Shown in pieces: positions 11,819-55,314 of a stretch of DNA of 64,000 nt. A program made the position numbers and the translations under genes. Each line of letters begins with the position of its first letter. Position 1 is the first letter of the stretch. The stretch covers positions 1-64,000 of the forward strand of contig DYJA01000029.1 in assembly GCA_020723345.1 (NCBI GenBank), read 5' to 3'. The DNA is from Candidatus Aquidulcis sp. Lineage in GTDB: Bacteria > Chloroflexota > Anaerolineae > UBA4142. The notes beneath the pieces were generated by a model, which had not been told where the DNA came from, ran no database searches, and saw only the letters and a list, made by a program, of their open reading frames with translations.

Positions 11819-11822
11819 CGTT

Positions 11823-13301: not shown

Positions 13302-13302
13302 C

Positions 13303-14331: not shown

Positions 14332-14350
14332 GCTATTCCTCGGATTTCGA

Positions 14351-15852: not shown

Positions 15853-15876
15853 CAGACTCCTTAAAGTTCGACAAAG

Positions 15877-16072
15877 AAAATTGGGCATGGTTCAAAAACT
15901 CTGAAAAGTTAGATTGACACTTTTGCACAACGGTTCGGAAATTTTTCGGCAACCAAGTGCCTCGAAGTGGCTATTTTGAGCATAAAACTGTGGATTCTTG
16001 ACTCTTATGTCCAGTTCGCCAAGTCTTCTGTCCTGGAAAAGTGTCAAGCTAACTTGAACCATGCCGAAAATT
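15877..16072. mobile_element. MITE-like element with long imperfect terminal inverted repeats
   Basis: The left arm (15877-15924) and right arm (16037-16072) are reverse complements apart from a 9-base insertion and a few mismatches. The shared parts are AATTKKGGCATGGTTCAA-like and AAGTTAGMTTGACACTTTT-like segments. They flank about 110 bases with no coding potential. The structure fits a small non-autonomous element inserted inside the leftward operon, but no target duplication was confirmed. Confidence 0.45.
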
Positions 16073-20098: not shown

Positions 20099-20100
20099 CG

Positions 20101-22422: not shown

Positions 22423-22442
22423 TCGCCGTTGAGGAGAAAGAA

Positions 22443-23414: not shown

Positions 23415-23438
23415 AAACCAAACGAATCAGTGATTTCT

Positions 23439-26368: not shown

Positions 26369-26451
26369 AAATGGAGGCAAATCAAATCATCCCATAGCGG
26401 TCAACAACCGCTGAACCCAATGAACAAATGTATGTCCCAGGAGGAAAAGAA

Positions 26452-34091: not shown

Positions 34092-34118
34092 ACACAGCAA
34101 TTCTTTCAGAGGAAGGGT

Positions 34119-34754: not shown

Positions 34755-34755
34755 A

Positions 34756-36003
34756 ATGTCTCAGTCACCCGAACAATTGCTTGCCGAGCGCAAGCAGCGT
34801 CTGCTCGATACCTATGCCATGAAACAACCGGACCGCGTTCCGATTTCGATCACGCTCAATTACATGCTGGCGCGGCTGGGTGGAATTACCTGCCAGGAAT
34901 TGGAAACCAATCCGGACAAGGCGCAGGAACTGCTCGAAAAGTGGGCGTTGCATTTCCAGCCCGATCAAATCGGGGGCGTCGGTTTGTTCGTTTCGCCACC
35001 CAGTGTCATCCTCGGCGATCGGCAAACCAAATGGCCCGGCTTTGGTTTGCCGCCGGAGCAACCTTTTCAGTTCGTCGAAGGCGAGTATATGAAGGCGGAG
35101 GAGTACGACGAGTTTATCGAAGACCCCACCAACTTTACGTTGCGCAAGTTCATGCCCCGCGCGTTCAAGGAATTGGAGGGCTTCACCGACTTGCCCCGTT
35201 TTCCCATTGTGTTGCTCGGCTATGCTGGTCTCAACTTCCTCAGCCGTCTCAATATGCCCTCCGTGAAAGCAAGTCTGGAGGCAGTGGAGAAAATGCTGCA
35301 GTGGTACGCGGACAACGCGGCGCGGGCGCGAGCGAATGCCCAACGGATGATGGCGCTTGGTTTCCCAGTCGGCATTGGCGGCGGTCCGTTGATCATGGCG
35401 CCATTTGATTTTATTTCCGATACCTTGCGCGGGATGCGCGGAATTTTTCTCGACATCTATCGCCGCCCCGACAAGGTTCTAGCCGCCGAAGAAAAAGCGC
35501 GGCACACCTGTGCGGATGCCGCGATCCAAGCCGCGCGCACCTCCGGTGCAAAGTATGTGCGGATCCCGTTGCATCGCGGTTCCGACGGTTTCATGTCCAT
35601 CGAACAATTCAAGACTTTTTACTGGCCCCAACTCAAGGGCTTGATGCTAGACTTGGTGGATGCGGGGCTAACTCCAATCCCATTCTACGAAGGCATCTGG
35701 GACGAACGGCTGGAATATTTGCGCGAGTTGCCAAAGGGCAAGACCGCCGGGCAATGGCAAAGCAGCAATATGTTCAAGGTGAAAGAAATCCTGGGAGATG
35801 TGATGCCGCACTTTGGCGGTTTCCCCGTCTCGCTGTTGCAAGGTGGCACCCCGGATCAAGTCCGCGCCTACACCAAGAAGATGTGCGAAAGCGTAGGCAA
35901 AGGCGGGGGATTCATTATGGGGACGAATACCGCGATGGACGAATGTAACGCCGAGCTCGTCAAGGTTTGGATCGACGCGACTAAAGAGTACGGCGTGTAC
36001 TAA
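34756..36003 (+). CDS. UroD-family methyltransferase (probable MT1 of the corrinoid system)
   Basis: A 415-residue uroporphyrinogen-decarboxylase-family protein. In corrinoid operons such proteins transfer a methyl group from the substrate to Co(I)-corrinoid (MtaA, MtbA and O-demethylase MT1 types). It starts one base after the corrinoid-protein stop; an in-frame ATG at 34741 is an alternative. The order MT2-corrinoid-MT1 supports the assignment. The methyl donor is unknown: methoxylated sugars or aromatics and betaine-like compounds are candidates. A decayed family member lies at 4183-4395. Confidence 0.82.
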   Translation: MSQSPEQLLAERKQRLLDTYAMKQPDRVPISITLNYMLARLGGITCQELETNPDKAQELLEKWALHFQPDQIGGVGLFVSPPSVILGDRQTKWPGFGLPPEQPFQFVEGEYMKAEEYDEFIEDPTNFTLRKFMPRAFKELEGFTDLPRFPIVLLGYAGLNFLSRLNMPSVKASLEAVEKMLQWYADNAARARANAQRMMALGFPVGIGGGPLIMAPFDFISDTLRGMRGIFLDIYRRPDKVLAAEEKARHTCADAAIQAARTSGAKYVRIPLHRGSDGFMSIEQFKTFYWPQLKGLMLDLVDAGLTPIPFYEGIWDERLEYLRELPKGKTAGQWQSSNMFKVKEILGDVMPHFGGFPVSLLQGGTPDQVRAYTKKMCESVGKGGGFIMGTNTAMDECNAELVKVWIDATKEYGVY

Positions 36004-36340: not shown

Positions 36341-37993
36341 ATGAGTGACAAGGCAATTTCACGACGTGAGTTCTTGCGACTCTCTGCCACGCTAGCGGCA
36401 GGCGGTGTCTTGGCGGCATGTGCGCCAGCGACAACAGCGCCAACCGCCGCGCCGACCAAAGCCGCCGCGACGGCAGCGCCAGCAACAACCGCTGCCGCGA
36501 CGACAGCGCCGGCAACTTCTGCGCCAACCGCTGCGGCAGCCGCGTGTGCCAAAGGAGACATTTGCATCCGGACGACCACGGTCAAACTGACCACAGCCCC
36601 GGTGACGTTCCGTTGGCTGGACACCGGCGAAGTCAAAGCCGAATTCTGGAAAAAGTTCTTTGCGCTTTATGAGCAAGCCCATCCCAATTTCAAGTGGACC
36701 TACGATGGTTTGGGCTGGAACGAGATTGCCAAGATTGTCCCATTGGGTATTCAGAATGGGAACTTGCACGACGTATTTAGCATTCCTCTCGGCATCTCGT
36801 CAGCCCAAGCGCTCGCAGAAGGATGGATTCGCCCGCTGGATGACCAGATTCCGGACTTGGAAAAAATCAAGGCGGCTTTTCCACCAATGTCGTTCGTTGA
36901 AGGCATCAATGTCTTCAATGGGAAGACTTATTCATTGCCCACCGGCACGAACATGCGCACGACCGATGCGTTGCTGTTCAATCGAGACTATATGGAGAAA
37001 GCCGGTTATGATCCGGTTGCCAAGCCATTTTCTTGGGATGACTTTCGAGCCGCCGCAAAGAAGATCACCGAGCAAGGGGCAGGCAAATACTTTGGCTTGA
37101 TCCAAGAGGGGGCTCAACTTCCCCGGTGGGGCATGATGGTCGGCACCCTATCCCGTATGTCCGGTGGGGGCTCGTACATTCAAACATCCGGTACCAATGG
37201 GTACCTTAATTTGCGCAAGGGCGAGTACATCTTTACCGACGATACGTACATTGCCGCGATCGAGTTGTTGCTTGCGCTAAAAGCGGATGGCAGCGTTTTC
37301 CCGGGAGGAATGGCAATGAACGCGCTCCAAGCGCGCGCCCAATTCGGCAATGGTGCCGCCGGCATGATCCTGCAAGGACTGTGGTGTCTCGATTCTTGGA
37401 AAAAGGATAACAAAAATCTCAGGTACGGAGTGGCGCTCACGCCGACCATCAAGGGTGGCGGCACCTATTCGCCTCAGCACGCCGCGGCGGGTGGTAACAA
37501 CGAGATGTGGGTTTACGCCAAGACCAAGTATCCCGACGTCGCTGCCGACATCCTGTATCATCGCAGCACCTTGGAAGGTCAATATGCGTGGAACAAGATC
37601 GCCGGCGTAGGCAATCCCGCGATCTTTCCGGAAGCGGTGGAGACGGCGTCCACCGATCCCATCGACGTCAATGGGCTGAAGCTGATGTTCAGTCAGTTCC
37701 GCTTGGGTCCGACGCCTGCCGTGCGGAATGCGGATGCTGCCAAGGTAGACGTGGAATTCAAAACCATCACGCCGAGCGTGGAGCAAGTGATTCAGGGCTT
37801 GATGTCGGGTCAGGTCACCGGCGTCAAGCAAGCGATGCAAGGCGTCAAGGATGCGTACGAAAAAGAACTCGACCGCGCGATCAAAGCGGCGCAAGCCAAA
37901 GGCGCAAAGGTGTCCCGCGACGATTACGTCTTTTCGAACTGGGATGTGAACAAGGATTACGTCGAAGCGGACTACAAGGCGGCGAAGAAATAA
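36341..37993 (+). CDS. Sugar ABC transporter substrate-binding protein, Tat-type lipoprotein
   Basis: A 550-residue extracellular solute-binding protein (SBP family 1). The N-terminus has a twin-arginine motif SRREFLRLS, a hydrophobic stretch and lipobox LAAC, so it is likely exported folded and lipid-anchored. An Ala/Thr/Pro linker and a domain starting near VTFRWLDTGEVKAEFW follow. A MalFG-type permease pair lies downstream at 39743-41703, with a sulfatase-fold gene inserted between. It should bind an oligosaccharide. Confidence 0.88.
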   Translation: MSDKAISRREFLRLSATLAAGGVLAACAPATTAPTAAPTKAAATAAPATTAAATTAPATSAPTAAAAACAKGDICIRTTTVKLTTAPVTFRWLDTGEVKAEFWKKFFALYEQAHPNFKWTYDGLGWNEIAKIVPLGIQNGNLHDVFSIPLGISSAQALAEGWIRPLDDQIPDLEKIKAAFPPMSFVEGINVFNGKTYSLPTGTNMRTTDALLFNRDYMEKAGYDPVAKPFSWDDFRAAAKKITEQGAGKYFGLIQEGAQLPRWGMMVGTLSRMSGGGSYIQTSGTNGYLNLRKGEYIFTDDTYIAAIELLLALKADGSVFPGGMAMNALQARAQFGNGAAGMILQGLWCLDSWKKDNKNLRYGVALTPTIKGGGTYSPQHAAAGGNNEMWVYAKTKYPDVAADILYHRSTLEGQYAWNKIAGVGNPAIFPEAVETASTDPIDVNGLKLMFSQFRLGPTPAVRNADAAKVDVEFKTITPSVEQVIQGLMSGQVTGVKQAMQGVKDAYEKELDRAIKAAQAKGAKVSRDDYVFSNWDVNKDYVEADYKAAKK

Positions 37994-37994
37994 A

Positions 37995-38100
37995 TCGTGA
38001 TGCGTGATGCGTGAAACGTGATGCGTGATGCGTGTTGCGTGACGCACCCTGAGCGGAGCGTAGCGCAGTCGAAGGGTCACGCATCACGTATCACCGATCA
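37995..38100. repeat. Tandem GTGATGCGTGA units and palindromic spacer
   Basis: At least four near-copies of GTGATGCGTG are followed by CCCTGAGCGGAGCGTAGCG-CAGTCGAAGGG and then the complements CACGCATCAC and CGTATCAC. It could fold into a long hairpin between the binding-protein and sulfatase-fold genes. Confidence 0.7.
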
Positions 38101-38118
38101 TCAAGTTGGAGGAACTAA

Positions 38119-39642
38119 ATGAATATCGTGTTTGTCATGTCGGATACATTCCGTCGAGATAATCTGAATTGTTATGGTGCATCGCGCGCCAAAACGCCGC
38201 GATTGGATCAACTGGCGAGCCAATCGTTCATCTTTGATAATGCCGCGGTGGGGTCTTTCCCCACACTTCCCAATCGCACAGACATCATGAGTGGGCGTTT
38301 TAGTTTTATTGACAGCCAATGGGGTCCGCTCTCCCGGCAGACGATCACCCTGCAACAGATTTTATCGGCATCGGGTATCACGACGATGTTGATTGCCGAC
38401 AACCCACACTTGGTTGAAGATGGCAACAACTATTGTCGCGGATTCAACGGCTGGGATTGGATTCGCGGACAGGAAAGCGATTTGTGGTACACCTCGCCCA
38501 AGAACCCTCACATGCCGAATGATCAAGGCAAGAACAAGGGGCGCAATGCCGTTCTGGAAAATATCCTCCGCAATTCGAGTTGGTGGAAATGCGAGGAGGA
38601 TCGTCACGCGCCGCGCTCGATTCAGTCGGCGTGTCGCTGGCTGGAATCAAATCAAGATCAAGACAAGTTCTTCCTCTGGATCGATCTCTTCGATCCCCAC
38701 GAACCCTGGGACGCGCCCAAGCATTATCTCGATCTCTATGAAAAAGAATATCACGGCGCTGAACTGCTTTACCCACATTATGGCTTTTGGAAAGAATTTT
38801 TAACTGCCGAAGAAATCCAGCATTGCCGCAATCTCTATCTCGCCGAAGTGAGCATGGTGGATCACTGGGTTGGCGTGCTCCTCGACAAGTTGGACGAGTT
38901 GGGTCTCACCGAAGATACCGCGGTGATTTTTACGAGCGACCACGGCTTTTTGCTCGGCGAAAAGGATTTCATTGGCAAAGCGCGCCACATCCCAAAACCC
39001 GACGGGAGTATGCAGATCGAAGCGCAGCGCCAGTGGAACGATATTCGTCGTGTGCCATTGCTCGTTCGCCTGCCCGGTCAAGTCGAGAGTAAAACGGTCC
39101 CCGCACTCGTTCAATCGCCGGACCTCATGCCGACGATTCTTGAAATGGCGGGACTCGTCAGCACGCAAGGGTTCGGCAGTGACGCCAAGATCCAAGCACA
39201 CCAGTGTGGCACATTTGTCAATGTGCGATGGACTTTTGACCCGGCGACCATCCACGGCCGATCGCTGATGCCAATCTTGCGCGGCGAAACTGCGCGTCAT
39301 CGCGACATCACCGTTAGTTCTCACACGCTGCTGCAACATACTCCCTACTATGCCCGGTGCGCCATCGCCACCGAAGACGGCTGGGTGCTACACTATTCCG
39401 GCTGCTATGATCTTTCTTCGGTCCAGGGCAAGATCCGCCACGCGTCTGTGGTGGGGAGCAATGAATCGCGCGTCCCCATCGCGCCCGCGCTCTACAACAT
39501 CAACACGGATCCGAACGAAGAACGCGATGTGATCGAGAGCAATGAACCGCTCGCGCGCGAGATTCACCAACGCTACGTGCGATTCCTGGAAGAGATCAAA
39601 ACGCCCGAAGAAAATCTCGCCGGAAGACGGATGCTGCGGTAA
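38119..39642 (+). CDS. Sulfatase-fold hydrolase with Thr at the nucleophile position (type T, copy 2)
   Basis: A 507-residue paralogue of the protein at 16153, alignable over the full length (shared SFPT-x-PNR, RGQE, FDPHEPWD, VQ-PDLMPT-LEMAGLV). Thr49 stands at the formylglycine position (TLPNR) and R53 is kept; the codon is ACA. D9 and SDHGFLLGEK provide metal ligands. No signal peptide. It is placed inside a sugar ABC transporter operon, between the binding protein and permeases, so its substrate probably enters by that transporter. Confidence 0.85.
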   Translation: MNIVFVMSDTFRRDNLNCYGASRAKTPRLDQLASQSFIFDNAAVGSFPTLPNRTDIMSGRFSFIDSQWGPLSRQTITLQQILSASGITTMLIADNPHLVEDGNNYCRGFNGWDWIRGQESDLWYTSPKNPHMPNDQGKNKGRNAVLENILRNSSWWKCEEDRHAPRSIQSACRWLESNQDQDKFFLWIDLFDPHEPWDAPKHYLDLYEKEYHGAELLYPHYGFWKEFLTAEEIQHCRNLYLAEVSMVDHWVGVLLDKLDELGLTEDTAVIFTSDHGFLLGEKDFIGKARHIPKPDGSMQIEAQRQWNDIRRVPLLVRLPGQVESKTVPALVQSPDLMPTILEMAGLVSTQGFGSDAKIQAHQCGTFVNVRWTFDPATIHGRSLMPILRGETARHRDITVSSHTLLQHTPYYARCAIATEDGWVLHYSGCYDLSSVQGKIRHASVVGSNESRVPIAPALYNINTDPNEERDVIESNEPLAREIHQRYVRFLEEIKTPEENLAGRRMLR

Positions 39643-39656
39643 GGTACGACTTGGGT

Positions 39657-39707
39657 TGTCATTTCGAGAGTACATACCGCCGCGCGGTATGTACTCTCGA
39701 AATGACA
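39657..39707. repeat. 51-bp near-perfect palindrome, TGTCATTTCGAG family
   Basis: Arms of 24 bases beginning TGTCATTTCGAGAGTACATA are exactly complementary around a CGC loop. It lies between the sulfatase-fold gene and the permease gene. It shares its ends with the repeats at 33021 and 55725. Confidence 0.85.
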
Positions 39708-39742
39708 TGGGCTGAGTAGTTTGCGGTAAAAGGAGACTTTGA

Positions 39743-40729
39743 ATGGAAACTGAATTGCGCGTTGCCAGAAGAATATCCGCCACCAAAGAACGGAAAAAAT
39801 CGAGTTGGGTGCGTCAACTCTGGGACGGACGTTGGTGTTATCTTTTCGCCGCGCCGGCGTTGATCCTCGCCACCATGTTCACGTTCTATCCGATTGTCTC
39901 GTCGTGGTACTTTTCACTGTTGCAATGGTCGGGGTTTACGGCGGACAAAACCTTTGTTGGACTGGCGAACTATGTCGAACTCGTTCAAGACAAGTACTTT
40001 TGGGACGCGTTCCTGCGCTCGTTTCAGTTCATGATCGTCGGCGTGCCAATCCAACTCACCCTGGCGTTGCTCGTCGCGATCGTGCTGAACGATCAGGCGC
40101 TTAAACTTTCACCGCTCTTCCGTACCATGTTCTTTTTGCCGGTCGTCACAACCGCCGCCATCGTCGGTATGTTGATGACGCTGATCCTCAGTCCATTCAA
40201 TGGTCCCGTCAACGGCGTTCTCCGCGATCTTCACTTGATCACTCAGCCGATTGATTTCTTGGGCAGCCCGCAAACGACGCTTTGGACGGTGATTGCGGTT
40301 TACATTTGGAAATGGCTGGGGCAGCCGATGATCTATTGGCTTGCCGCGCTCCAGACGATTCCGCGCGAACTGTACGAAGCCGCCAAAGTCGACGGCGCGG
40401 GCTGGTGGAGACAACTGTGGAGCATTACGCTTCCCCTTATCGTGCCGTTTGCGATTGTCATCATTCTCGTCACCGCCGTCGGCGCGCTGCACGTCTTTCC
40501 GCTGATCCAAACCTTGACCGGTGGTGGTCCATTCTTCGCGACCGAAGTCATGGAAGTTTATATCTATCGCGTCGCCTTCGGCGGCGAGACAGGCATGGGG
40601 ACACCCCGCTTGGGGTACGCGTCGGCAGCCGGTGTGTTCTTTGGCGTCGCCGTGATGGTCCTTGCGCTCATGCAGGCATGGGGCGCGCGTAGTTTGCGCG
40701 ATTTTCGCTCGGATCTGCAATCGCTGTGA
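39743..40729 (+). CDS. Sugar ABC transporter permease (MalF-like)
   Basis: A 328-residue permease with a cytoplasmic N-terminus, about six membrane spans and the EAA loop ELYEAAKVDGAGWWRQLWSITLP that contacts the ATPase. It is a CUT1-type component. The ribosome site AAAGGAGA precedes ATG 39743. It pairs with the MalG-like gene at 40816. No MalK/MsmX-type ATPase is present in the window. Confidence 0.9.
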   Translation: METELRVARRISATKERKKSSWVRQLWDGRWCYLFAAPALILATMFTFYPIVSSWYFSLLQWSGFTADKTFVGLANYVELVQDKYFWDAFLRSFQFMIVGVPIQLTLALLVAIVLNDQALKLSPLFRTMFFLPVVTTAAIVGMLMTLILSPFNGPVNGVLRDLHLITQPIDFLGSPQTTLWTVIAVYIWKWLGQPMIYWLAALQTIPRELYEAAKVDGAGWWRQLWSITLPLIVPFAIVIILVTAVGALHVFPLIQTLTGGGPFFATEVMEVYIYRVAFGGETGMGTPRLGYASAAGVFFGVAVMVLALMQAWGARSLRDFRSDLQSL

Positions 40730-40732
40730 AAA

Positions 40733-40797
40733 GTGATTCGTGATACGGGATTCGTGAAATTCAATGTCACGTATCACGCATCATGTCACTTGTCACA
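40733..40797. repeat. GTGATTCGTGATACG-type inverted repeat
   Basis: CGTGATACG on the left and CGTATCACG on the right pair, with flanking GTGAT/TCAT extensions. It is related in composition to the repeats at 37995-38100 and sits between the two permease genes. Confidence 0.6.
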
Positions 40798-40815
40798 TTT
40801 TTGGAGAAGTTTCAG

Positions 40816-41703
40816 ATGGCATTGGCTTTTTCGCGACCCCGACGCAGAACTCGGGCACAAGCATTACCCCGCCGGTGGAGCGGCTCCAGTCGGCGCGCGA
40901 TGATTGCGAGTCTCATTCTGATCCCGATCTGCCTCCTCTGGATTTATCCGTTCCTGTGGATGATTTCCGCATCGCTCAAGCCGAACGCGGAATTTTTCCA
41001 AGGCACGGGCTTGATTCCGGCATCGCCGCAATGGAGCAATTACGTGCGCGCGTGGCAGAACGCACGCATCGGCGATTATTTCTTCAATTCAGTCATCGTC
41101 ACCGTCTCGTCTGTCGCGATTGCAACGATTACCGGCGCGATGATCGGCTATGTCTTGGGACGTTTTTCGTTTCCTGGCAAAAAACTGATCATGGGTTTGT
41201 TCGTCGCGACCGTATTCATCCCGCAGGGCTATACCATCATCCCGGTTTTCGAGATCGTCAATCGGTTGGGACTCGCGGATACGTTGTGGGGCGTGATTCT
41301 CGCGGAAGCCGGAGGAGTGAATGTCCTCTCGATCTTGCTCTTCGCCGGATATTTCGCGCAACTCCCGCGCGAATTGGAAGAAGCCGCGCAAATGGATGGC
41401 GCCGGATTCTTGCGTGTGTTTTGGTCCATCATGCTGCCGCTGTCCAAGCCGGTGATCGCTTCGACGATCATCTTGCGTTTCATCACGATCTGGAACAGTT
41501 TCTTGCTGCCGCTCGTGCTGACGCTTTCGCGACCCGCCCTCCGGACACTCGCCGTCGGGATCTACGCGTTCCGGGGAGAGTATTACGTCGATTGGAGTGG
41601 CATGGCAGCGGCGGCGACGATCAGTCTTCTGCCGGTAATTATCATGTTCATCCTTTTGCAGCGCTATTTCGTCGAGGGAATTTCTGGCGCAGTCAAACAA
41701 TAA
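40816..41703 (+). CDS. Sugar ABC transporter permease (MalG-like)
   Basis: A 295-residue permease. ATG 40816 follows TTGGAGAAG. It has the N-terminal LIPICLLWIYPFLWMISASLK helix, the EAA loop ELEEAAQMDGAGFLRVFWSIMLP and a C-terminal YFVEGISGAVKQ ending typical of MalG-type proteins. It forms the channel of the CUT1 transporter with the MalF-like protein. Confidence 0.9.
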   Translation: MALAFSRPRRRTRAQALPRRWSGSSRRAMIASLILIPICLLWIYPFLWMISASLKPNAEFFQGTGLIPASPQWSNYVRAWQNARIGDYFFNSVIVTVSSVAIATITGAMIGYVLGRFSFPGKKLIMGLFVATVFIPQGYTIIPVFEIVNRLGLADTLWGVILAEAGGVNVLSILLFAGYFAQLPRELEEAAQMDGAGFLRVFWSIMLPLSKPVIASTIILRFITIWNSFLLPLVLTLSRPALRTLAVGIYAFRGEYYVDWSGMAAAATISLLPVIIMFILLQRYFVEGISGAVKQ

Positions 41704-41735
41704 AGTTGCTCATTCGCCGTTGGCGCACTAGCGAT

Positions 41736-41831
41736 CGGATGAAAATAATTGGACACAGATTAACACAGATTAACACAGATAGTTAAAAAATCAGTGTGAA
41801 TCAGTGTTTATCCGTGTCCTATTTTCTCGGG
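41736..41831. repeat. GGACACAGATTAACACAGATT-type inverted repeat, copy 1
   Basis: It starts CGGATGAAAATAATTGGACA, runs through ACACAGATT units, and closes with complements ATCAGTGTTTATCCGTGTCC and TATTTTC-TCGGGAG. A second copy at 56783-56870 shares both ends. Both lie immediately before a ribosome site and ATG. Confidence 0.8.
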
Positions 41832-41838
41832 AGAAGAA

Positions 41839-44283
41839 ATGACATACAAAGATGCAACCCTGCCAATCGAGCAACGTGTGGATGATCTGTTGGCGCAAAT
41901 GACGTTGGAAGAAAAAGTGGCGCAATTGTGTTGCGTGATGCCGCGCATGTTAATCGGCGATCAAATCCCCGACCCAGGATTGATGAAAAAGTACATGGCA
42001 AATGGTCTCGGGCGGATGGCGCAATTCTCGATGGTGTTCGTCGACAACCCGGAGCAGATCGCCGAGTTTGCCAATCACATTCAAAAGTTCGTGATCGAAA
42101 ATACGCGACTCGGAATCCCGCTGATGTTCCAGAATGAAGCGTTGAACGGATTCACCGCCGTCGGCGCAACCAACTTTCCCACGCCGATCGCGCTGGCATC
42201 GACCTGGGAACCCGAGTTGGTGGAACAAGCCGCGCAAGTGATCCGTGATCAGATGCGCGCGACCGGCGTTCACATCGCGCTTGCGCCGGTGATTGACCTG
42301 GCGCAAGACCCGCGCTGGGGGCGTGGGCATGAAGCTTTTGGCGAAGACCCGTATCTTTCGTCGGCATTCGGTGCGGCGTTCGTGCGCGGCTTGCAAGGCG
42401 CTGATTTGCGAACAGGCGTTGTCTCGTGCGCCAAACATTTTCTGGGCTACAGCATTTCGCAAGGTGGCTTGAACATGGGCGCGGTACGCATCGGCGAGCG
42501 CGAATTGTACGAGACGTTTGCGCGTCCCTTCGAGACTGCGATCCATGAATGTGATTTGGCGATGGTAATGGTGACGTATTCCGAAATCGACGGTCAGCCG
42601 GTGAGCGTCAACAAAAATATTTTGCGCGATTTGTTGCGCGACAAGATGGGATTCAAAGGGTCGGCGACTTGCGATGGTCACTCGATTGAGTTGACCGTTA
42701 CAAAACAACATGTGGCGAAGAACATGCAAGAAGCCGCGATCATGGCGATTGAAGCCGGGCTGGATGGGGATACTCCTGTCTCCGAAGCGTATCACGAACT
42801 AGTTGGCGCGGTCAATCAGGGTCTGGTCGATGTGAAATATGTGGACGAAGCCGTGCGGCGCATTCTAACCATCAAGTTCCGGCTGGGGTTGTTCGAGAAT
42901 CCGTTCGTCGATGTGAACAAGGTCAGGTCGGCTTTCGAAAATCCGGCGCATCGTCAACTCTCGCGCAAATTGGCGGAGCATTCGATCACGCTGCTCAAGA
43001 ACGATGGACATTTGCTGCCGTTGAAAAACGTCAAGACGATTGCGGTGATTGGTCCCCACGCCGATAGCGTGCGCGATAGTCTGTTCGCCGGGTACACCTT
43101 CCCGGCAATGATGGAAATGATAAAGAACTTGCGCCGCGGCGGCAGAGCATCCATGCAAGGTGTGGCGGATAAAGTCATGGAGCAAGAGAACCAGAAGTCG
43201 GAGCCGTCCGAGTTTTTTGTCGCGCTGGGCGAACTCGGTGACATCAATCAATATATCGAGAAGGAATATGGCGCGGTCAGTCTGCGCGACGCAATCGCGA
43301 AACGCAAAGGTGTGGAGGTGATCTACGCCAAGGGCTGCGGCATCGCTGATCCATCCAAGGATGGATTCGCGGAAGCAGTCGCGGCAGCGCGAAAAGCAGA
43401 CGTGGTTGTGGTCGCACTCGGCGGCAGATCGGGCTGGGGCAAGGATGCCACTTGTGGTGAAGGGCGCGATGCGTCCACCATCGAATTGATGGGAGTTCAG
43501 GAGGAATTGCTCAAAGCGATTCACGCGATCGGCAAACCGGTGGTACTTGTACTTTTCGATGGGCGACCACTCGCGATTCCGTGGGCGGCAGACGCTTCGC
43601 GTATTCCAGCGATTATCTATGCCTGGTTCCCTGGTCAAGCCGGCGGCGAAGCGCTCGCGGATGTTTTGTTTGGCGAGGTCAACCCCGGCGGAAAATTGCC
43701 GGTGACGATACCGCGCAGCACTGGTCAGGTACCGCTATTCTACAATCATAAAGCAGGCAGCGGTTACCAAACAAACTACAACGAAGGCGTCGCCGCTTTC
43801 CTAGGTTACGGCTATGTCAATGAATCGAACCTGCCCTTGTACGCGTTCGGGCACGGATTGAGTTACACAAGATGTGAATTCAGCGATTTGCAGTTGAGCG
43901 CAAAGCAAGTTGACTCGTCCGGTGAAATCGCGATTGCGTGTTCGATCAAAAATGTTGGCGTTGTGGCGGGCAGTGAAGTGGTGCAACTCTACCTGCACGA
44001 TTGCGAAGCGCGCGTCACTCGCCCGGTGCAAGAACTGGTCGGGTTCAAGCGCGTCGAACTCAAACCGGGGGAGCGTTGCAGGGTGACGTTCGTCGTGAAG
44101 ATGAATCAACTTGGCTTTTACAATCACAACATGCAGTTCGTTGTCGAGCCGGGCAACATGGAAGTGATGATTGGCGCGAGTTCGGATGACATTCGCTTGC
44201 GAAGCGCGTTTGAGATCACCGGCGAAACTGTGTCGGTGCTAGGCAAACGCAGTTACCTCTCGCAAGCGCAAGTCGAGAAATAG
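41839..44283 (+). CDS. GH3 glycoside hydrolase (beta-glucosidase/xylosidase-like)
   Basis: An 814-residue three-domain GH3 enzyme: TIM barrel (about 1-350), alpha/beta sandwich (about 380-640) and a C-terminal fibronectin-III-like domain (about 690-790). The nucleophile is probably D279 in GSATCDGHSIE, a variant of the common VSDW motif. PRWGRGHEAFGEDPYL and CAKHFLGYS are standard substrate-site blocks. No signal peptide, so it should be cytoplasmic. An unusual Lys/Glu-rich stretch (about 430-480) lies within the second domain. It sits between a sugar transporter and a sulfatase-fold gene. Confidence 0.9.
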   Translation: MTYKDATLPIEQRVDDLLAQMTLEEKVAQLCCVMPRMLIGDQIPDPGLMKKYMANGLGRMAQFSMVFVDNPEQIAEFANHIQKFVIENTRLGIPLMFQNEALNGFTAVGATNFPTPIALASTWEPELVEQAAQVIRDQMRATGVHIALAPVIDLAQDPRWGRGHEAFGEDPYLSSAFGAAFVRGLQGADLRTGVVSCAKHFLGYSISQGGLNMGAVRIGERELYETFARPFETAIHECDLAMVMVTYSEIDGQPVSVNKNILRDLLRDKMGFKGSATCDGHSIELTVTKQHVAKNMQEAAIMAIEAGLDGDTPVSEAYHELVGAVNQGLVDVKYVDEAVRRILTIKFRLGLFENPFVDVNKVRSAFENPAHRQLSRKLAEHSITLLKNDGHLLPLKNVKTIAVIGPHADSVRDSLFAGYTFPAMMEMIKNLRRGGRASMQGVADKVMEQENQKSEPSEFFVALGELGDINQYIEKEYGAVSLRDAIAKRKGVEVIYAKGCGIADPSKDGFAEAVAAARKADVVVVALGGRSGWGKDATCGEGRDASTIELMGVQEELLKAIHAIGKPVVLVLFDGRPLAIPWAADASRIPAIIYAWFPGQAGGEALADVLFGEVNPGGKLPVTIPRSTGQVPLFYNHKAGSGYQTNYNEGVAAFLGYGYVNESNLPLYAFGHGLSYTRCEFSDLQLSAKQVDSSGEIAIACSIKNVGVVAGSEVVQLYLHDCEARVTRPVQELVGFKRVELKPGERCRVTFVVKMNQLGFYNHNMQFVVEPGNMEVMIGASSDDIRLRSAFEITGETVSVLGKRSYLSQAQVEK

Positions 44284-44374: not shown

Positions 44375-45775
44375 ATGAACCTGATTGTGATTATGACTGA
44401 TTCTCTACGCAAGGATCATGTTGGCGCGTACGGCAACAAGCGCGTTCGCACCCCGGGGATAGACAAATTCGCTGCCAAGAGCTTGGTGTTCGAACGCGCT
44501 TTTCCGGAAGGGTTGCCGACGATCAATGTTCGCCGTGCGCTCTTCACGGGGCGACGCTCTTTTCCCAGCTATGACTGGGCACCATGGAAGGGGGACCTCG
44601 TACCCTTCCTTGGGTGGCAGCCGCTCAGCGAGGACGATGTGACACTGACCGAAGTATTACGCGCAAATGGATATGTCTGTGGTCTAGTCGCCGATTCCTA
44701 TCACATGTTCAAGCCGCGTCAGAATTTTGCCCGCGGTTTTCATGCCTACACCTTCATTCGGGGACAAGAAACCGATCCCTGGAAGAGTGGTCCGGTGCCG
44801 GACGAACTGGTCAAAAAGTACTGCCATCCCGAGTTGGATCGCCGGCACAAAATCCGAACCTTACAACACCTTCGGAACAACCTGTGGCGGAAGACTGAAG
44901 AAGACTATTTGCCGGCTCGAGTCTTTCGCACCGCCGCCGAGTGGCTAGAGGAGAACCGGTCGTACAAGAACCTGTTTCTGTGGGTAGATTGCTTCGACCC
45001 GCACGAGCCGTGGGATTCTCCAAAGGAATATGTTGATCTGTACGACCCAGGATACACAGGGCGCGATTTCATTCTGCCCCAGTCAGGAGATTGCAGTTAC
45101 ATGTCACCGGCGGAGCTGAACCACTGCCGTGCCAACTATGCCGGCGAAGTGACGTTTGTGGACAAGTGGTTCGGCTGGTTCATGGAGCGGGTCGAAGAAC
45201 TGGGATTGATGGAGAACAGCGTGATTCTGTTCCTTGCGGATCATGGGCATCCGCTTGGAGAACACGGCATTATTTCCAAGAATCCGACGTGTCTGTATCC
45301 GGAACTGGTGGATGTTCCGTTTATGCTGCGGATTCCAGGGCGCACTCAGGAAGGGAGCCGGACGAATGTGTTGGTGCAGTTCCACGACGTAGCGCCGACA
45401 TTGCTGGATGCGCTTGGAGTGGCGTATCCGGCGGATTACACGCATAATGGGCAGAGTTTCCTAAATGCGCTTGCGCCGGGGGTGCCTTCGCCGCGCGATC
45501 ATTTTGTCTGCGGGTATCATGACAGCGCATTGGTCGAAGATGGAGAGTGGTCCTACATCTTTACCCAGGATCCATCCTCGCGCCGGCTCTTCAACATTCG
45601 TCAAGACCCAGATTGGCGCACCAATCTCTATGCGGACAAGCCAGTGGAGGTAAGGCGACTGCACTCTCTCTTGCTCGAGGTAGCCGACCCCGAGAAGTTG
45701 AAGAACAAGATTGATTTCAATCCGATTCACTTTTTTCCCCCATCCGACGCTTTGAATGCGAGGGAATTGCGGTGA
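44375..45775 (+). CDS. Sulfatase-fold hydrolase with Thr at the nucleophile position (type T, divergent copy 3)
   Basis: A 466-residue alkaline-phosphatase-superfamily protein. The active-site segment is TINVR: Thr49 (ACG codon) replaces Cys/Ser, the following Pro is Asn, and R53 is kept. VIMTDSLRKD and LFLADHGHPLGEHG carry metal ligands; FDPHEPWD is shared with the other type-T copies. It is more distant from copies 1 and 2 than they are from each other. No signal peptide. It is the last gene of the sugar-transporter/GH3 group. Confidence 0.83.
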   Translation: MNLIVIMTDSLRKDHVGAYGNKRVRTPGIDKFAAKSLVFERAFPEGLPTINVRRALFTGRRSFPSYDWAPWKGDLVPFLGWQPLSEDDVTLTEVLRANGYVCGLVADSYHMFKPRQNFARGFHAYTFIRGQETDPWKSGPVPDELVKKYCHPELDRRHKIRTLQHLRNNLWRKTEEDYLPARVFRTAAEWLEENRSYKNLFLWVDCFDPHEPWDSPKEYVDLYDPGYTGRDFILPQSGDCSYMSPAELNHCRANYAGEVTFVDKWFGWFMERVEELGLMENSVILFLADHGHPLGEHGIISKNPTCLYPELVDVPFMLRIPGRTQEGSRTNVLVQFHDVAPTLLDALGVAYPADYTHNGQSFLNALAPGVPSPRDHFVCGYHDSALVEDGEWSYIFTQDPSSRRLFNIRQDPDWRTNLYADKPVEVRRLHSLLLEVADPEKLKNKIDFNPIHFFPPSDALNARELR

Positions 45776-49654: not shown

Positions 49655-51388
49655 ATGAACACTATTGATCTAAAAAGTACTCCATTCAATTTGTCTGACG
49701 ATGACATTCGTTGGGTGAAACAAACGCTGGCGACAATGGACGTGCGCGCCAAAGTCGGACAACTTTTTTGTCTGCTGGTGGCTCAGGAGGAGATCACCGA
49801 TCTACTCCGACAACTTGAAACGCTTGATTTAAAGCCCGGCGGGTTTATGTGTCGTCCATTGCCGGGCGCGGTCGTACAGAAAATTCATCGCGATTTGCAA
49901 AATCGTTTTGAGATTCCGCTGCTCCTCGCGGCGAATCTCGAACGCGGCGGCATCGGCATTGCGCTCGATGGCACGAACTTTGCCTCGCAAATGCAAGTCG
50001 CCGCGACGGATGACGAAACGATGGCGTATCGCCTCGGTCTGGTGTGCGGACGCGAAGCGCGCGCGGTCGGATGCAACTGGACGTTTTCGCCGGTCGTGGA
50101 CATTGATTTCAACTTTCAGAATCCGATCACCAACACGCGGACGTATGGCTCGGATCCTGACCGCGTGTTGCGGATGGCGCGCGCGTACATCCGAGGCATA
50201 CAAAAATGTGGACTTGACGTTTCGATCAAGCATTTTCCCGGCGATGGCGTGGATGGGCGCGACCAACATTTGCTCACCAGCGTCAACTCGTTGTCCGTCC
50301 AAGCGTGGGATGAAACATACGGCAAAATCTACAAAGAACTCATCGCGGCGGGCGCAAACACCGTAATGTCGGCGCACATTCTGCAACCGGCGTATTCGAA
50401 AAAATTACGCCCGGGGATTCGCGACGAAGATATTATGCCGTCATCGCTCGCGCCGGAATTGAACAATCAACTATTGCGCGAGCAATTGGGATTCAACGGT
50501 TTGATTGTCACCGATGCAACGCCGATGGCGGGATTCACAATTCCGATGCCGCGCGAACGCGCCGTCCCAACTTCGATTGCCGCTGGCAATGATATGTTCT
50601 TGTTTACCCACGACCTCGAAGAAGATTTTCGTTTTATGCTCGCAGGAGTCCGCGACGGCATTTTGACTCAGGCGCGTTTGGATGAGGCGGTCACGCGGAT
50701 TCTCGCGCTCAAAGCATCGCTGCATTTGCGCGAACGCAAAGCGCAAGGCGCGCTCGTGCCGGACGAAAGCGCGTTGCAGATTTTGAATTGCGCGGAACAT
50801 CGCGCGTGGGCAACCGACTGCGCGGACAAAGCCATCACGCTCGTCAAAGACACCCAGAATATTTTGCCGCTCTCGCCGGAAAAACACAAACGGATTTTGT
50901 TGTACGTGCTGGGTGACACCGGTGGATACTTGGATTTCGGTGGAACGAGCAGCAAGAAATTCGTAGAGTTGTTACGCGAACGCGGATTTGACGTGACTCC
51001 ATTTGATTACAGCAAAACCCAAGGCGCGACCATGTTCAATCATTCATTCAAGGCGCAACCAATCAATCAATGGAAACGCGAGTACGACCTCGTATTGTAC
51101 TTTGCCAGTTTGAAAACTGCGAGCAATCAAACAGTCGTCCGCATCAATTGGGCGCAACCGATGGGCATTGACGTTCCCAAGTTTGTCAGCGAAATTCCCA
51201 CGGTGTTCGTCTCGGTTGATAATCCGTATCACCTGCAAGATGTTCCCAGGGTCAAAACGTTTATCAATGCGTACACGTCGAGCGAATTCGTCGTTGAGGC
51301 GTTAGTCGAAAAATTGCTGGGCAAATCGTCCTTTCAAGGGATTAACCCGGTAGACCCGTTCTGCAACTTGTGGGACGCGCGGTTGTAG
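49655..51388 (+). CDS. GH3 glycosidase of the NagZ-like (KHFPG-x-G) branch
   Basis: A 577-residue GH3 protein. KHFPGDGVDGRDQH (about 192-205) is the NagZ-type loop with a DxH acid/base dyad at D203/H205, and D287 in GLIVTDATP is the probable nucleophile. Such loops occur in beta-N-acetylhexosaminidases, and some of these enzymes are phosphorolytic, which could explain the pgmB neighbour if the product were a sugar-1-phosphate. A second domain (about 375-577) is retained, but there is no Fn3 tail. No signal peptide. Confidence 0.82.
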   Translation: MNTIDLKSTPFNLSDDDIRWVKQTLATMDVRAKVGQLFCLLVAQEEITDLLRQLETLDLKPGGFMCRPLPGAVVQKIHRDLQNRFEIPLLLAANLERGGIGIALDGTNFASQMQVAATDDETMAYRLGLVCGREARAVGCNWTFSPVVDIDFNFQNPITNTRTYGSDPDRVLRMARAYIRGIQKCGLDVSIKHFPGDGVDGRDQHLLTSVNSLSVQAWDETYGKIYKELIAAGANTVMSAHILQPAYSKKLRPGIRDEDIMPSSLAPELNNQLLREQLGFNGLIVTDATPMAGFTIPMPRERAVPTSIAAGNDMFLFTHDLEEDFRFMLAGVRDGILTQARLDEAVTRILALKASLHLRERKAQGALVPDESALQILNCAEHRAWATDCADKAITLVKDTQNILPLSPEKHKRILLYVLGDTGGYLDFGGTSSKKFVELLRERGFDVTPFDYSKTQGATMFNHSFKAQPINQWKREYDLVLYFASLKTASNQTVVRINWAQPMGIDVPKFVSEIPTVFVSVDNPYHLQDVPRVKTFINAYTSSEFVVEALVEKLLGKSSFQGINPVDPFCNLWDARL

Positions 51389-51406: not shown

Positions 51407-52852
51407 ATGGCTTCTCGTCCAAATCTAGTTCTGTTCATCGCCGATCAATGGCGCGGCGATGTGGTGGGGCACATGGGCAATCCCGCTGCTGTGACGCCCA
51501 ATCTCGACCGGATGGTACAGACCGACGCGGTTTCGTTCAGAAACGCGTTTTGCCAGAATCCCGTCAGCACCCCGAGTCGATGTTCCTTCATGAGCGGATG
51601 GTATCCGCACGTGCATGGGCATCGCACCATGACCCACATGCTCCGCCCGCATGAACCGATGCTGCTCAAAACGCTCAAGGATGCTGGCTACTATGTCTTT
51701 TGGGATGGCAGAAATGACACAGTCCCAGCCCAGAACGGTTTCGAGCCATTCTGCAACGAAGTATACCAACCCCTCACGCTAAGCGGTCTACGAAAGTTAT
51801 CACACGGAGCCCCCGATAGCAAGCCGAATTATTCTTTCTACATCGGGCGGCAAGAAAAAGAACCTGGGCAACCATATCCGCCCGGTCCCGATTGGGGCTG
51901 GGTGATGGGGGCAATTGAGTTCCTTCAGCGCTTGCCCGCGGATCGTCCCTTTTGTCTTTATCTGTCGGTGGTGTTTCCGCACCCGCCGTATGGCGTGGAA
52001 GATCCGTGGTACAGCCAGATTGATCGCAAGCGGCTACCGCCGCGCATTCCGTCACCCGATTGGTCGACCAAACCCAGTATGCTCAAGGGCATCGCGTCGC
52101 TCCAAGGTCTGCAGGGCTGGTCCGAGGAACGCTGGGACGAACTGCGCGCCACATACTATGGCATGTGCGCGCGCATCGATCACCAACTGGGTCTGGTCAT
52201 GGACGCGCTGCGTCGTTCAGGTCATTACGATGATACCGCGGTCTTTATGTTTTCGGACCATGGTGACTATACGGGCGACTATGGGATCGTGGAAAAGAAC
52301 CAAAACACATTCGAGGATTGTCTGACGCGCGTTCCGTTCGTCATCAAACCTCCTGCTAGCGTTCCGGTCAAGCCGCGCATCTGCGACGCATTGGTTGAGT
52401 TGATCGACATGCCCGCGACGGTGGAGGCATTGGCAGGCATCACACCGCAACACACACACTTTGGGCGATCGCTCTTGCCGTTGTTGGCGGGCGAGACGGA
52501 GGAGCACCGCGACGCTGTGTTTTGCGAAGGCGGGCGCATCCACGGTGAGAAACAGTGCATGGAATCAGATGCCGATCTAAAAGGACCCTATATGCCGCGT
52601 TTGTATTGGCAGCGGCAGGAGGGACCGGAACACACGAAAGCGGTGATGTGCCGGACACGCGAGTGGAAATATGTGCGTCGCTTGTACGAACAGGATGAAT
52701 TGTACAATCTGCGCGACGATCCGCGCGAAATGAACAATCGCATCAACGATCCGGCGCTGGCGGGCGTGGTAGCGCAGATGAAAGAGCGGATGCTGACATT
52801 TTTCCTGGAAACGGGCGATGTCGTTCCGTATGACATCGACCGGCGCTTTTGA
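51407..52852 (+). CDS. Ser-type sulfatase
   Basis: A 481-residue sulfatase. The active-site signature STPSR places S54 as the formylglycine precursor with R58 conserved. FIADQWRGDVVG and MFSDHGDYTGDYGIV hold metal ligands. Ser-type sulfatases depend on the anaerobic radical-SAM maturase, which is encoded at 23439. There is no signal peptide, unlike many Ser-type enzymes that work in the periplasm. It lies between two GH3 genes, so sulfate removal and glycoside cleavage are probably sequential steps on one substrate. Confidence 0.9.
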   Translation: MASRPNLVLFIADQWRGDVVGHMGNPAAVTPNLDRMVQTDAVSFRNAFCQNPVSTPSRCSFMSGWYPHVHGHRTMTHMLRPHEPMLLKTLKDAGYYVFWDGRNDTVPAQNGFEPFCNEVYQPLTLSGLRKLSHGAPDSKPNYSFYIGRQEKEPGQPYPPGPDWGWVMGAIEFLQRLPADRPFCLYLSVVFPHPPYGVEDPWYSQIDRKRLPPRIPSPDWSTKPSMLKGIASLQGLQGWSEERWDELRATYYGMCARIDHQLGLVMDALRRSGHYDDTAVFMFSDHGDYTGDYGIVEKNQNTFEDCLTRVPFVIKPPASVPVKPRICDALVELIDMPATVEALAGITPQHTHFGRSLLPLLAGETEEHRDAVFCEGGRIHGEKQCMESDADLKGPYMPRLYWQRQEGPEHTKAVMCRTREWKYVRRLYEQDELYNLRDDPREMNNRINDPALAGVVAQMKERMLTFFLETGDVVPYDIDRRF

Positions 52853-52872
52853 GCCGGTCGCGAGATAGACAG

Positions 52873-55314
52873 ATGACAAACGAAAAAATCGAATCGCTGA
52901 TTGCTCAAATGACCGTGGACGAAAAGATTTCGCTCTTGGCGGGCGCGGATTGGTGGCACACGATTCCCATCAAACGGTTGAACATTCCCGTGTTCAAAGT
53001 GAGCGATGGTCCCGTGGATGCGCGAGGAAGTAACTTTGTATCGGGACCAAAGTCGGCGTGTTTTCCGTGCGGGACCGCGCTCGCGGCAACGTGGAATCCC
53101 GATTTGGTCGAGCAGGTTGGCAGTGCGCTCGCGGAGGACGCGCAAGCCAAGGGCGCGCACATCTTGCTCGCGCCGACGGTGAACATTCAGCGCTCGCCGC
53201 TCGCGGGACGCAATTTCGAATGTTATTCCGAAGACCCGTATCTCACCGCGCGCATGGCGGTCGCGTACATCACCGGTTTGCAAAGCGGCGGCGTCGGCGC
53301 GTGCATCAAACATTTCGTGTGCAACGATTCTGAATTCGAGCGCATGTCCATGAGTTCGCAAGTGGATGAACGTCCGCTCCGCGAGATTTATTTGCGTCCA
53401 TTTGAAATTGCGATCCGCGAAGCGAAACCGTGGGCGGTCATGTCGTCGTACAATCGCATCAATGGCGCTTATGCCAGCGAGAACGATTATCTCTTGCGCG
53501 ACATCTTGAAAGGCGAATGGGGCTTTGATGGTATCGTCATCTCCGATTGGTATGGCACGTACAGTCCGCAGGTTGCCACCGGCGGACTCGACTTGGAAAT
53601 GCCGGGACCGGCGCGCTGGATGGGCAAACCCGCGCGCGATGCATACACGCGCGGCGCGCTGACCGACAAACAACTCGACGACAAGGTGCGCCGATTGTTG
53701 CGAACGTTCGAAAGAGCCGGCGTGTTCGAGCATCCTGATCTGCAACCGGAGCAAGCGATTGACCAACCGGCACATCGCGCGATCGCGCGGCAAGCGGCAA
53801 GTGAAGCCATCGTCCTACTCAAGAATGACCGCGCGATTTTGCCGCTCGATCCTGCCAGGCGTCGATCCATCGCGGTGATCGGCGCGAACGCCAAGTGGGC
53901 ATCGTACAGAGGCGAAGGAAGCGCGCGCGTCAATCCGCATTACGTAATCGCGCCGTTGGATGCGATCGCGCACCGCGCGGGTGATCGCGCGTCGTTTGCG
54001 ATCGGGTGCAACATTCGCAAGCAACCGCCGGTCTTCGACGAGAGCAGTTTGACCGCTCCACTCACCGTGCAGTACTATGCCAATCGCAATCTGAGCGGCG
54101 AGCTGGTTTACGCGGAGACCGTTCGCAAACTCGAAATGTTTTGGTTTAACGACACGGTGCCGGGGGTCGAATTGGAAAATCTTTCGGCGCGCATTACAGG
54201 CGCGTTCAAAGTCGCGGATAACGGGACGTACGAGATTGGTATGTGGAGTACGTGCGCCAGTCGTCTGTTCGTGGATGGCGCGCTCATCGTCAACCAGTGG
54301 GACGATCCGGAGCGTCAAGGCGAACGCGTAAAACTGGGTGCGGTCGAGTTACGTGCCGGTCAAACTTATCAACTCCAAGTCGAATGTGTGGGACAGAAGA
54401 ACGCGCTCTGGTTACGATTGCGTGCCGGCTGCATGGCGCAAACGCCCGCCGATTCGATGGAGCAAGCGATCGCGCTCGCGGCGCGCTCCGATGTGGCGAT
54501 TGTGTTTACCGGATTGACCGCCGAGTGGGAAGGCGAAGGATATGATCGTCCCGACATGGGACTCCCGGGCGATCAAGCGAAATTGATCGAGCAGGTTGCG
54601 GCAGCGAATTCAAATACGATGGTGGTGCTCAACGCCGGTTCGCCGGTGAACATGCCCTGGCTTGACAAGGTCGCCGCTGTGGTGGAGTGCTGGTATCTTG
54701 GGCAAGAGACCGGCAATGCGATTGCGGATGTTCTCTTTGGCGATGTGAATCCGTCCGGCAAATTGCCGACGACTTTTCCGAAACGTTTGCAAGACAATCC
54801 GGCGTACATCAATTATCCGGGCGAGAATGGCAAAGTGCTGTACGGTGAAGCGCTCTTCGTCGGCTATCGTTACTATGACAAGAAGGATATCGAACCGCTT
54901 TTCCCGTTTGGGTACGGCTTGTCGTACACGACGTTCGCATATCGCCATCTCAAACTTAGCCAGTCGGAGTACGCGGCGGGCGAACCGATTCGGTTTAGCA
55001 TCGAGATCGAGAACACCGGCAAGCGCGCAGGACAGGAGATTGTCCAGGTGTACGTGCGCGATGTCGCCGCGCGGCTCGTGCGCCCGGAAAAAGAGTTAAA
55101 GCAGTTTGCCAAAGTTGCGCTAAAACCAGGCGAGATCCAGACGCTCAACTTGACGCTGGACGAGCAATCGCTCGCGTATTATGATCCCTCGGCGAAACAA
55201 TGGATCGTCGAGCCGGGCGAATTTCAAATCGTAGTCGGCAGTTCATCGCGCGATATTCGCGCCAGCGCGATCTTCAGCGTGACCCATACCCCGTCGGAGA
55301 CTCGCAAAGAATGA
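52873..55314 (+). CDS. GH3 beta-glucosidase with PA14 insertion
   Basis: An 813-residue GH3 enzyme. ATG 52873 is the probable start. The nucleophile D225 lies in GIVISDWYGTY. The TIM barrel (about 1-310) and alpha/beta domain are interrupted by a PA14 module (about 395-540, with VQYYANRNLSGE and SRLFVDGALI), as in KmBglI-type enzymes where PA14 shapes the pocket. An Fn3-like domain (about 690-800) ends the protein. No signal peptide. It is the last gene of the pgmB group. Confidence 0.9.
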   Translation: MTNEKIESLIAQMTVDEKISLLAGADWWHTIPIKRLNIPVFKVSDGPVDARGSNFVSGPKSACFPCGTALAATWNPDLVEQVGSALAEDAQAKGAHILLAPTVNIQRSPLAGRNFECYSEDPYLTARMAVAYITGLQSGGVGACIKHFVCNDSEFERMSMSSQVDERPLREIYLRPFEIAIREAKPWAVMSSYNRINGAYASENDYLLRDILKGEWGFDGIVISDWYGTYSPQVATGGLDLEMPGPARWMGKPARDAYTRGALTDKQLDDKVRRLLRTFERAGVFEHPDLQPEQAIDQPAHRAIARQAASEAIVLLKNDRAILPLDPARRRSIAVIGANAKWASYRGEGSARVNPHYVIAPLDAIAHRAGDRASFAIGCNIRKQPPVFDESSLTAPLTVQYYANRNLSGELVYAETVRKLEMFWFNDTVPGVELENLSARITGAFKVADNGTYEIGMWSTCASRLFVDGALIVNQWDDPERQGERVKLGAVELRAGQTYQLQVECVGQKNALWLRLRAGCMAQTPADSMEQAIALAARSDVAIVFTGLTAEWEGEGYDRPDMGLPGDQAKLIEQVAAANSNTMVVLNAGSPVNMPWLDKVAAVVECWYLGQETGNAIADVLFGDVNPSGKLPTTFPKRLQDNPAYINYPGENGKVLYGEALFVGYRYYDKKDIEPLFPFGYGLSYTTFAYRHLKLSQSEYAAGEPIRFSIEIENTGKRAGQEIVQVYVRDVAARLVRPEKELKQFAKVALKPGEIQTLNLTLDEQSLAYYDPSAKQWIVEPGEFQIVVGSSSRDIRASAIFSVTHTPSETRKE

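Follow-up and report, generated by a model that had tools for sequence, protein, structure and literature searches.

A putative cytosolic sulfated-oligosaccharide locus that combines Cys- and Ser-type sulfatases with Thr-type proteins of the same fold

Why should a single locus encode sulfatase-fold proteins with three different residues, Cys, Ser, and Thr, at the position of the catalytic nucleophile? The original prediction counted six such genes in about 37 kb of the window, as we call the whole 64,000-nucleotide stretch of Candidatus Aquidulcis DNA analyzed here, and took the three residues as a sign that one complex substrate carries several kinds or positions of ester. The inventory of two Cys-, one Ser-, and three Thr-type genes was confirmed by profile search and alignment. 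All six genes are intact and match the Pfam Sulfatase family (PF00884), their scores of 125-161 bits being well above the cut-off of 25, and in an alignment of the six proteins the nucleophiles share one column, together with the metal ligands. The Cys types are C21007 (21007-22422, plus strand; 161.3 bits; CAPAR, codon TGC at 21160-21162) and C28121 (28121-29533, plus strand; 141.5 bits; CAPAR, codon TGT at 28277-28279), which are 59% identical. The Ser type is S51407 (51407-52852, plus strand; STPSR, codon AGC at 51566-51568). These three proteins carry the [CS]-x-[PA]-x-R motif, while Thr breaks it in T16153 (16153-17670, minus strand; 124.8 bits; GSFPTVPNR, with TVPNR from the nucleophile on, codon ACA at 17524-17526), T38119 (38119-39642, plus strand; TLPNR, codon ACA at 38263-38265), and T44375 (44375-45775, plus strand; TINVR, codon ACG at 44519-44521). 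For T44375 the Thr had been assigned correctly, but its motif is TxNxR and not TxPxR.

The Thr proteins are 57% and 35-38% identical among themselves and 27-31% identical to C21007, C28121, and S51407. Overall, the locus holds at least three distinct subfamilies, with pairwise identities of 27-33% between groups. The 6.34-Mb genome encodes seven PF00884 proteins over cut-off, and six of them fall within 37 kb of the window, so the clustering is not due to chance; the seventh, on another contig, is of the Cys type (CCPSR). No signal peptide or transmembrane segment was apparent in the six proteins in a hydropathy check.

The surroundings of the six genes form three sub-loci. The first runs on the minus strand from 17670 to 9406, where T16153 lies upstream of a catabolic run on the same strand (9406-15888, assigned by family matches): a FucI/SftI-like isomerase (14476-15888), a Cgl0159-like aldolase (13303-14412), an FGGY kinase (11823-13301), a TIM-like isomerase (10889-11818), and a LarA-like protein (9406-10917). 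The isomerase is nearest to the sulfoquinovose isomerase SftI, at 240 bits and below the cut-off of 700, and a sulfo-TAL-like or 6-deoxysugar pathway is possible for this run; the substrate of the locus may thus be fucose-like, sulfoquinovose-like, or of another kind. The second sub-locus (19.1-31.7 kb) comprises, on the plus strand, Dpp/Opp-type ABC permeases B and C (19151-21006; PF00528), C21007, a thioredoxin/DsbA-like protein, the maturase gene, a SulP/STAS anion transporter (24665-26368; PF00916, 292 bits) whose start overlaps the end of the maturase gene, an SBP_bac_5 lipoprotein (26428-28038; PF00496), and C28121, and also includes a sensor kinase. In the third sub-locus (36.3-55.3 kb), T38119 sits between the substrate-binding protein (36341-37993) and the first permease (39743-40729) of a CUT1-type ABC importer (36341-41703, plus strand; second permease 40783-41703). 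An open reading frame at 40764-41786, which overlaps the second permease, is a frame without family match. The importer is followed by a beta-xylosidase/arabinosidase-like GH3 (41839-44283, plus strand), T44375, a MalT-type regulator, a beta-phosphoglucomutase, a second GH3 (49655-51388, plus strand; top NCBIfam matches Bet13-16Glucosase at 105 bits and NagZ-type at 104 bits, all below cut-off), S51407, and a GH3 with PA14 (52849-55314, plus strand) whose start overlaps the stop of S51407. The three GH3 proteins likewise showed no apparent signal peptide or membrane segment in the hydropathy check, and RNA folding of the start region of S51407 revealed nothing. From these features we infer that imported sulfated oligosaccharides are broken down inside the cell, with SulP moving sulfate.

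The single radical-SAM maturase that had been noted is indeed an anSME (radical SAM/SPASM; 23430-24719, plus strand), which scores 498 bits against TIGR03942; no other protein of the genome exceeds the cut-off of 349. The FGE family (PF03781) is represented by 17 clear proteins, all on other contigs; PF03781 is a broad family in which membership alone does not establish a working FGE, but given these proteins the anSME need not be the sole maturase of the genome. Enzymes of the anSME type accept Cys as well as Ser as substrate residue (PMC3920027). Directly between C21007 and anSME lies the two-domain AhpC/TSA plus DsbA-like thioredoxin (22419-23414, plus strand; PF00578 with 61 bits, PF13462 with 70 bits), for which a redox role around an active-site Cys is conceivable. 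This fused protein also weakly resembles the Rcas_1661 (seleno)lipoprotein family.

Does the Ser of S51407 define a class of its own? We gathered S51407-like proteins from relatives as well as 399 genomes of the phylum, and in 15 of them the nucleophile was readable. All 15 have Cys, encoded by TGC or TGT, and the AGC of the window is one base away; even the relatives in genomes G247, G314, and G281, which are 64-66% identical, retain Cys. A separate Ser class was therefore rejected: the Ser is a single-base variant within a Cys subfamily and marks neither a catalytic nor a substrate class, and the substrate should not be read from Cys versus Ser. Together with C21007 and C28121, S51407 is best explained as an ordinary formylglycine sulfatase, predicted to hydrolyze sulfate esters, with its maturase encoded in the same locus. 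The anSME would oxidize the Cys or Ser of [CS]xPxR to formylglycine in these three proteins, and SulP would likely transport the sulfate that they release.

While the Cys/Ser part of the locus is ordinary, the interesting part is the Thr clade and its anSME-linked Cys branch. T16153, T38119, and T44375, the last on a divergent branch, belong to one ancient clade, which we named after its FDPHEP motif; the His of this motif is the counterpart of sulfatase His211. A search of GTDB genomes for FDPHEP proteins returned 80 Thr loci, distributed over Chloroflexota, Armatimonadota, Planctomycetota, Poribacteria, Latescibacterota, Bathyarchaeota, Brockarchaeota, Thermoproteota, and others. A tree of 123 rows places 107 proteins in the clade, of which 101 carry Thr and five Cys, while one is unreadable. 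The idea that the Thr proteins are decayed paralogues of the local Cys ones was rejected on account of the 27-31% identity and the separate clade (100/100 support). To our knowledge, no member of the Thr clade has been assayed. Among 93 operon-neighbor proteins of Thr genes, GFO/IDH/MocA proteins, xylose-isomerase-like TIM barrels, and ABC transporters recurred weakly, and no decisive shared partner was found.

The Thr proteins might be noncatalytic remnants or binding proteins that keep the sulfatase fold. Two features agree with this: Thr is no formylglycine precursor (PMC5066984), and Lys113, the sulfate-binding residue of the sulfatase GK motif, is missing. Its position is taken by Asp94 throughout the clade, in Thr and Cys members of the tree set alike, a correspondence of moderate certainty because the alignment is gapped there. 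But in 54 diverse FDPHEP-Thr proteins from many phyla, Thr49, Arg53, Asp192-Pro-His194-Glu-Pro, Asp274-His275-Gly, and Lys287 are invariant, and Asp9 is conserved in at least 90%. Since the same column holds Thr in 54 of 54 homologues, the Thr assignments are not artifacts, and the invariance of Thr49, Arg53, His194, Asp274, His275, and Lys287 indicates a live active site, whereas drift would scatter the nucleophile. Moreover, the window maintains three intact copies. We therefore consider loss of catalysis very unlikely. An AlphaFold2 model of T38119 (pLDDT 90.2) has the complete sulfatase/phosphonate monoester hydrolase (PMH) fold and matches solved S1 sulfatases and PMHs with Z scores of 30-35 over about 400 residues, the best matches being S1_7, S1_46, and PMH (Z 33-35). 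No solved structure within the clade was found by profile search, in which the neighbors were again S1 sulfatases and PMHs. According to SulfAtlas, Asp occupies the Lys113 position in 87 of 4058 sequences, and Thr is present in 30 of the 59 PF00884 seed sequences, the TxNxE-type ones among them being uncharacterized according to its authors (PMC5066984).

How are the Thr proteins matured, if at all? The SulfAtlas authors point out that oxidation of Thr would give a ketone and not formylglycine, and they do not count Thr proteins as sulfatases (PMC5066984). Oxidation by anSME or another maturase to such a ketone cofactor could be imagined, for TxPxR preserves the frame of maturase recognition and anSME is encoded in the same locus. 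We searched 50 Thr-bearing genomes for anSME and the FGE family. Twelve have neither: 11 archaea (Bathyarchaeota, Brockarchaeota, and Thermoproteota including Caldivirga sp. MU80) and one Calescamantes bacterium. We then read nearly all PF00884 genes of these 12 genomes, the exceptions being a weak 42-bit fragment (G076) and a short piece (G089). In 11 of the 12, Thr is the nucleophile in all 44 distinct genes read, up to 14 per genome. The remaining one, G089, is a 1.2-Mb MAG with no maturase detected, in which three genes are of the Thr type and four of the Cys type; a maturase may be missing from this assembly, and the absence of a maturase from a MAG can hence be an assembly gap. An anSME is present in 28 of the 50 genomes, as expected if these also hold Cys/Ser enzymes, but there was none in 1,008 kb of DNA flanking the 80 Thr loci, and a specific tie between anSME and Thr loci was accordingly rejected. 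With Thr enzymes in genomes that lack both maturases, no anSME near their loci, and the Pro of xPxR absent from T44375, a ketone cofactor is highly improbable. As judged from these gene distributions, the Thr clade seems to need no maturation and to be independent of the known maturases, and we do not expect T16153, T38119, and T44375 to be anSME substrates. In the maturase-free Bathyarchaeota and Thermoproteota (L104-L153), other PF00884 families are abundant as well, with a Thr nucleophile that lacks Arg at +4 (for example VPTQPSF and HYWDPH).

The Cys members of the FDPHEP clade behave differently with respect to anSME. Eleven FDPHEP-Cys proteins, all from the phylum of the window, form one clade (100/99), and in four of eight genomes (G046, G008, G247, G314) an anSME gene lies no more than about 12 kb away from them. 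In G046, an S51407-like Cys gene, anSME, and FDPHEP-Cys follow each other with genes touching; in G247 and G314, FDPHEP-Cys adjoins S51407-like Cys genes, and anSME is about 3-12 kb off. In trees with the nucleophile masked, the Cys branch falls inside the Thr branch (branches with 95/96 and 98/94), and a single Thr clade occurred in 0 of 200 bootstrap trees; a single Thr clade nevertheless survived the AU tests (p = 0.34 and 0.33), and we therefore do not claim a Thr-to-Cys direction.

Genome G008, from the same family but another genus, shares nine blocks with the window at 77-90% nucleotide identity: GH3, two permeases, the binding protein, SulP, anSME, the isomerase, the TIM-like protein, and LarA. 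The last three are 90-93% identical in G008 and the beta-xylosidase/arabinosidase-like GH3 90%, and the anSME-SulP pair is kept. Over the 58 kb of the G008 contig that were read, the single sulfatase-fold gene, which separates SulP from the binding protein, is of the FDPHEP-Cys type (SSMPCMPAR); in the slot of T38119, between the binding protein and the first permease, G008 has no gene. The anSME of the window is closer to that of G008 (88% identity) than to that of G001 (78%), which is of the same genus as the window; for SulP the values are 86% and 66%. This pattern suggests horizontal movement of the core. On the basis of these sequence comparisons (against G008:C91:757-17740), the catabolic core was probably transferred horizontally, and its sulfatase genes turned over. 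Two further observations concern the neighborhood. In G008 (L165 10383-17744), a fructose-6-phosphate aldolase/transaldolase-like gene lies between the isomerase and anSME. The window itself has a corrinoid methyltransferase set (pterin-binding methyltransferase, corrinoid protein, UroD-like; 33291-36003) inside the sulfatase locus, and UroD-like or corrinoid genes are located near sulfatase or anSME genes also in G008, G060, and G021, which hints at demethylation of a methylated substrate.

With these subfamilies at hand, we returned to the proposed link between nucleophile and ester. Conservation of the mixed set in related genomes had been proposed as a check. The exact set was absent from all 13 same-genus or same-family genomes, which contain no C21007-like gene, no S51407-like gene, and one close Thr homologue (G004). 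Nor is GH3 adjacency conserved, with one GH3a match among the loci retrieved. What does recur, in more distant genomes, is the pairing of FDPHEP and S51407-like genes, which lie within about 10 kb of each other at 6 of 17 S51407-like loci (p about 7e-7 if a generous 2% chance per locus is assumed, although proximity is inflated by the sulfatase islands that many of these genomes hold). The FDPHEP partner is of the Thr type in G143 and G262, but of the Cys type in G046, G247, G314, and at a second locus in G262; the association follows subfamily and not nucleophile type. G143 and G262 (L201 786-8823, L205 162-8410), which represent two genera, have a mixed array in common, in which an FDPHEP-Thr gene is accompanied by an S51407-like Cys gene and two further Cys sulfatase genes. 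As no anSME was found in either genome, the Cys types of these arrays must be matured by FGE or in some other way. Such recurring arrays, together with the three or more subfamilies of the locus, make an attack on several positions of a substrate plausible. But three nucleophile types standing for three ester types or positions is unlikely: the Ser occurs in a Cys subfamily and is one base away from Cys, Thr and Cys alternate inside one clade in equivalent loci, G008 has the same transporter, GH3, and isomerase with one such enzyme in the stretch read, and the exact set is missing from the close relatives. The processing of a substrate at this locus stands, as sulfated-sugar utilization by ABC importers, GH3s, SulP, and an isomerase, kinase, and aldolase, while the equation of nucleophile with ester type is unsupported. 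Instead of three groups, the six proteins are better divided into two, namely formylglycine enzymes (Cys/Ser) and a maturase-free Thr clade.

Taken together, we favor, with reasonable though far from full confidence, a cytosolic sulfated-oligosaccharide locus in which formylglycine sulfatases are paired with maturase-free esterases that use a Thr nucleophile. In T16153, T38119, and T44375, the plain hydroxyl of Thr49 would attack the ester without any maturation, held by one metal (Asp9, Asp274, His275) and helped by Arg53, His194, and Lys287. The resulting covalent sulfo- or phospho-threonine would be resolved by water, for which the clade-specific Asp94, at the place of sulfatase Lys113, and the nearly invariant His97 may provide the activating base. 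That a plain nucleophile is chemically possible is indicated by a choline sulfatase with unmodified Cys, which performs multiple turnovers (PMC6189696); exchange of the Cys for Ser in choline sulfatase lowers kcat/KM about 1000-fold (PMC5870055).

Which ester would the Thr proteins cut? They could be phosphodiesterases or phosphonate monoester hydrolases that act through a phospho-Thr intermediate, as LtaS/EptA and NPP do, on a phosphorylated part of the same substrate, an explanation that differs from the favored one solely in the ester cut. With Z scores of 33.4 and 33.2, PMHs rank among the nearest folds, as they do among the profile matches; Lys113 is lost, weak matches to Phosphodiest (PF01663) occur, and LtaS/EptA are established to use a Thr nucleophile at a single Asp/Glu-Thr-Asp-His metal site. 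But S1 sulfatases are equally close by fold and profile, the window shows no genes that would point to phosphonates or phosphodiesters, and FDPHEP-Cys proteins with the residues of the clade are found in sulfatase islands or, in the G008 stretch, as the sole sulfatase-fold gene beside anSME and SulP. This phosphoester activity is a serious possibility that we nevertheless rate below an even chance. For the Thr clade as a whole, a sulfate ester comes close to an even chance and phosphate or phosphonate is a considerable prospect, whereas a noncatalytic role has a small and any other option a slight probability. SulP, anSME, the sulfatase islands, and replacement by the Cys sister lean to sulfate, the chemistry and the loss of Lys113 to phosphate. 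Back at the favored pairing of formylglycine and Thr enzymes, its boldest form would make the FDPHEP-Thr proteins genuine sulfatases with unmodified Thr, a maturase-free S1 branch spread over both bacteria and archaea, in which a natural switch between Thr and Cys goes with the presence of anSME; we put this forward tentatively, as an idea more likely to fail than to hold.

Type I sulfatases are defined by formylglycine, and relatives with Thr are in most cases either wrongly annotated as sulfatases or left aside. The Thr proteins described here should not be annotated as "sulfatase"; with its own Cys branch near anSME, the clade provides naturally matched Thr and Cys enzymes with which to ask whether sulfate esters can be processed by this fold free of the cofactor. 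Compared to the S1 sulfatases of SulfAtlas, the FDPHEP proteins share the whole fold (nearest solved S1_7, 6hhm, Z 35.2, and S1_46, 7oz8, Z 33.5) as well as Arg53, the metal Asp/Asp/His, His194, and Lys287, but have Thr where the S1 enzymes have Cys/Ser and Asp94 at the position of Lys113, with about 20-27% identity to any solved member; C21007, C28121, and S51407 have [CS]xPxR in common with S1. PMHs (2w8s, 2vqr, 4uph) match the fold of the Thr protein with Z 31-33, and their active site has a single-Asp metal site with Asp-His (DHG) and conserved Lys and His, like the Thr clade. However, PMHs form formylglycine from CxPxR, which is impossible for the Thr clade. LtaS and EptA use an unmodified Thr nucleophile on one metal bound via Thr, Asp, and His, and act on phosphodiesters. 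The invariant Thr49 beside Asp274-His275, a predicted metal site, resembles this arrangement, but local matches are weak, S1 sulfatases and PMHs head the list of similar folds instead, and LtaS/EptA are membrane-anchored, whereas T16153, T38119, and T44375 lack a transmembrane segment or signal peptide and start at the first core strand. Finally, as in polysaccharide-utilization sulfatase loci with anSME, the window combines several sulfatases, glycoside hydrolases, and transporters with one maturase; it differs from them in that its enzymes are apparently cytosolic and fed by ABC importers, and in that Thr-type members are added or swapped between genera.
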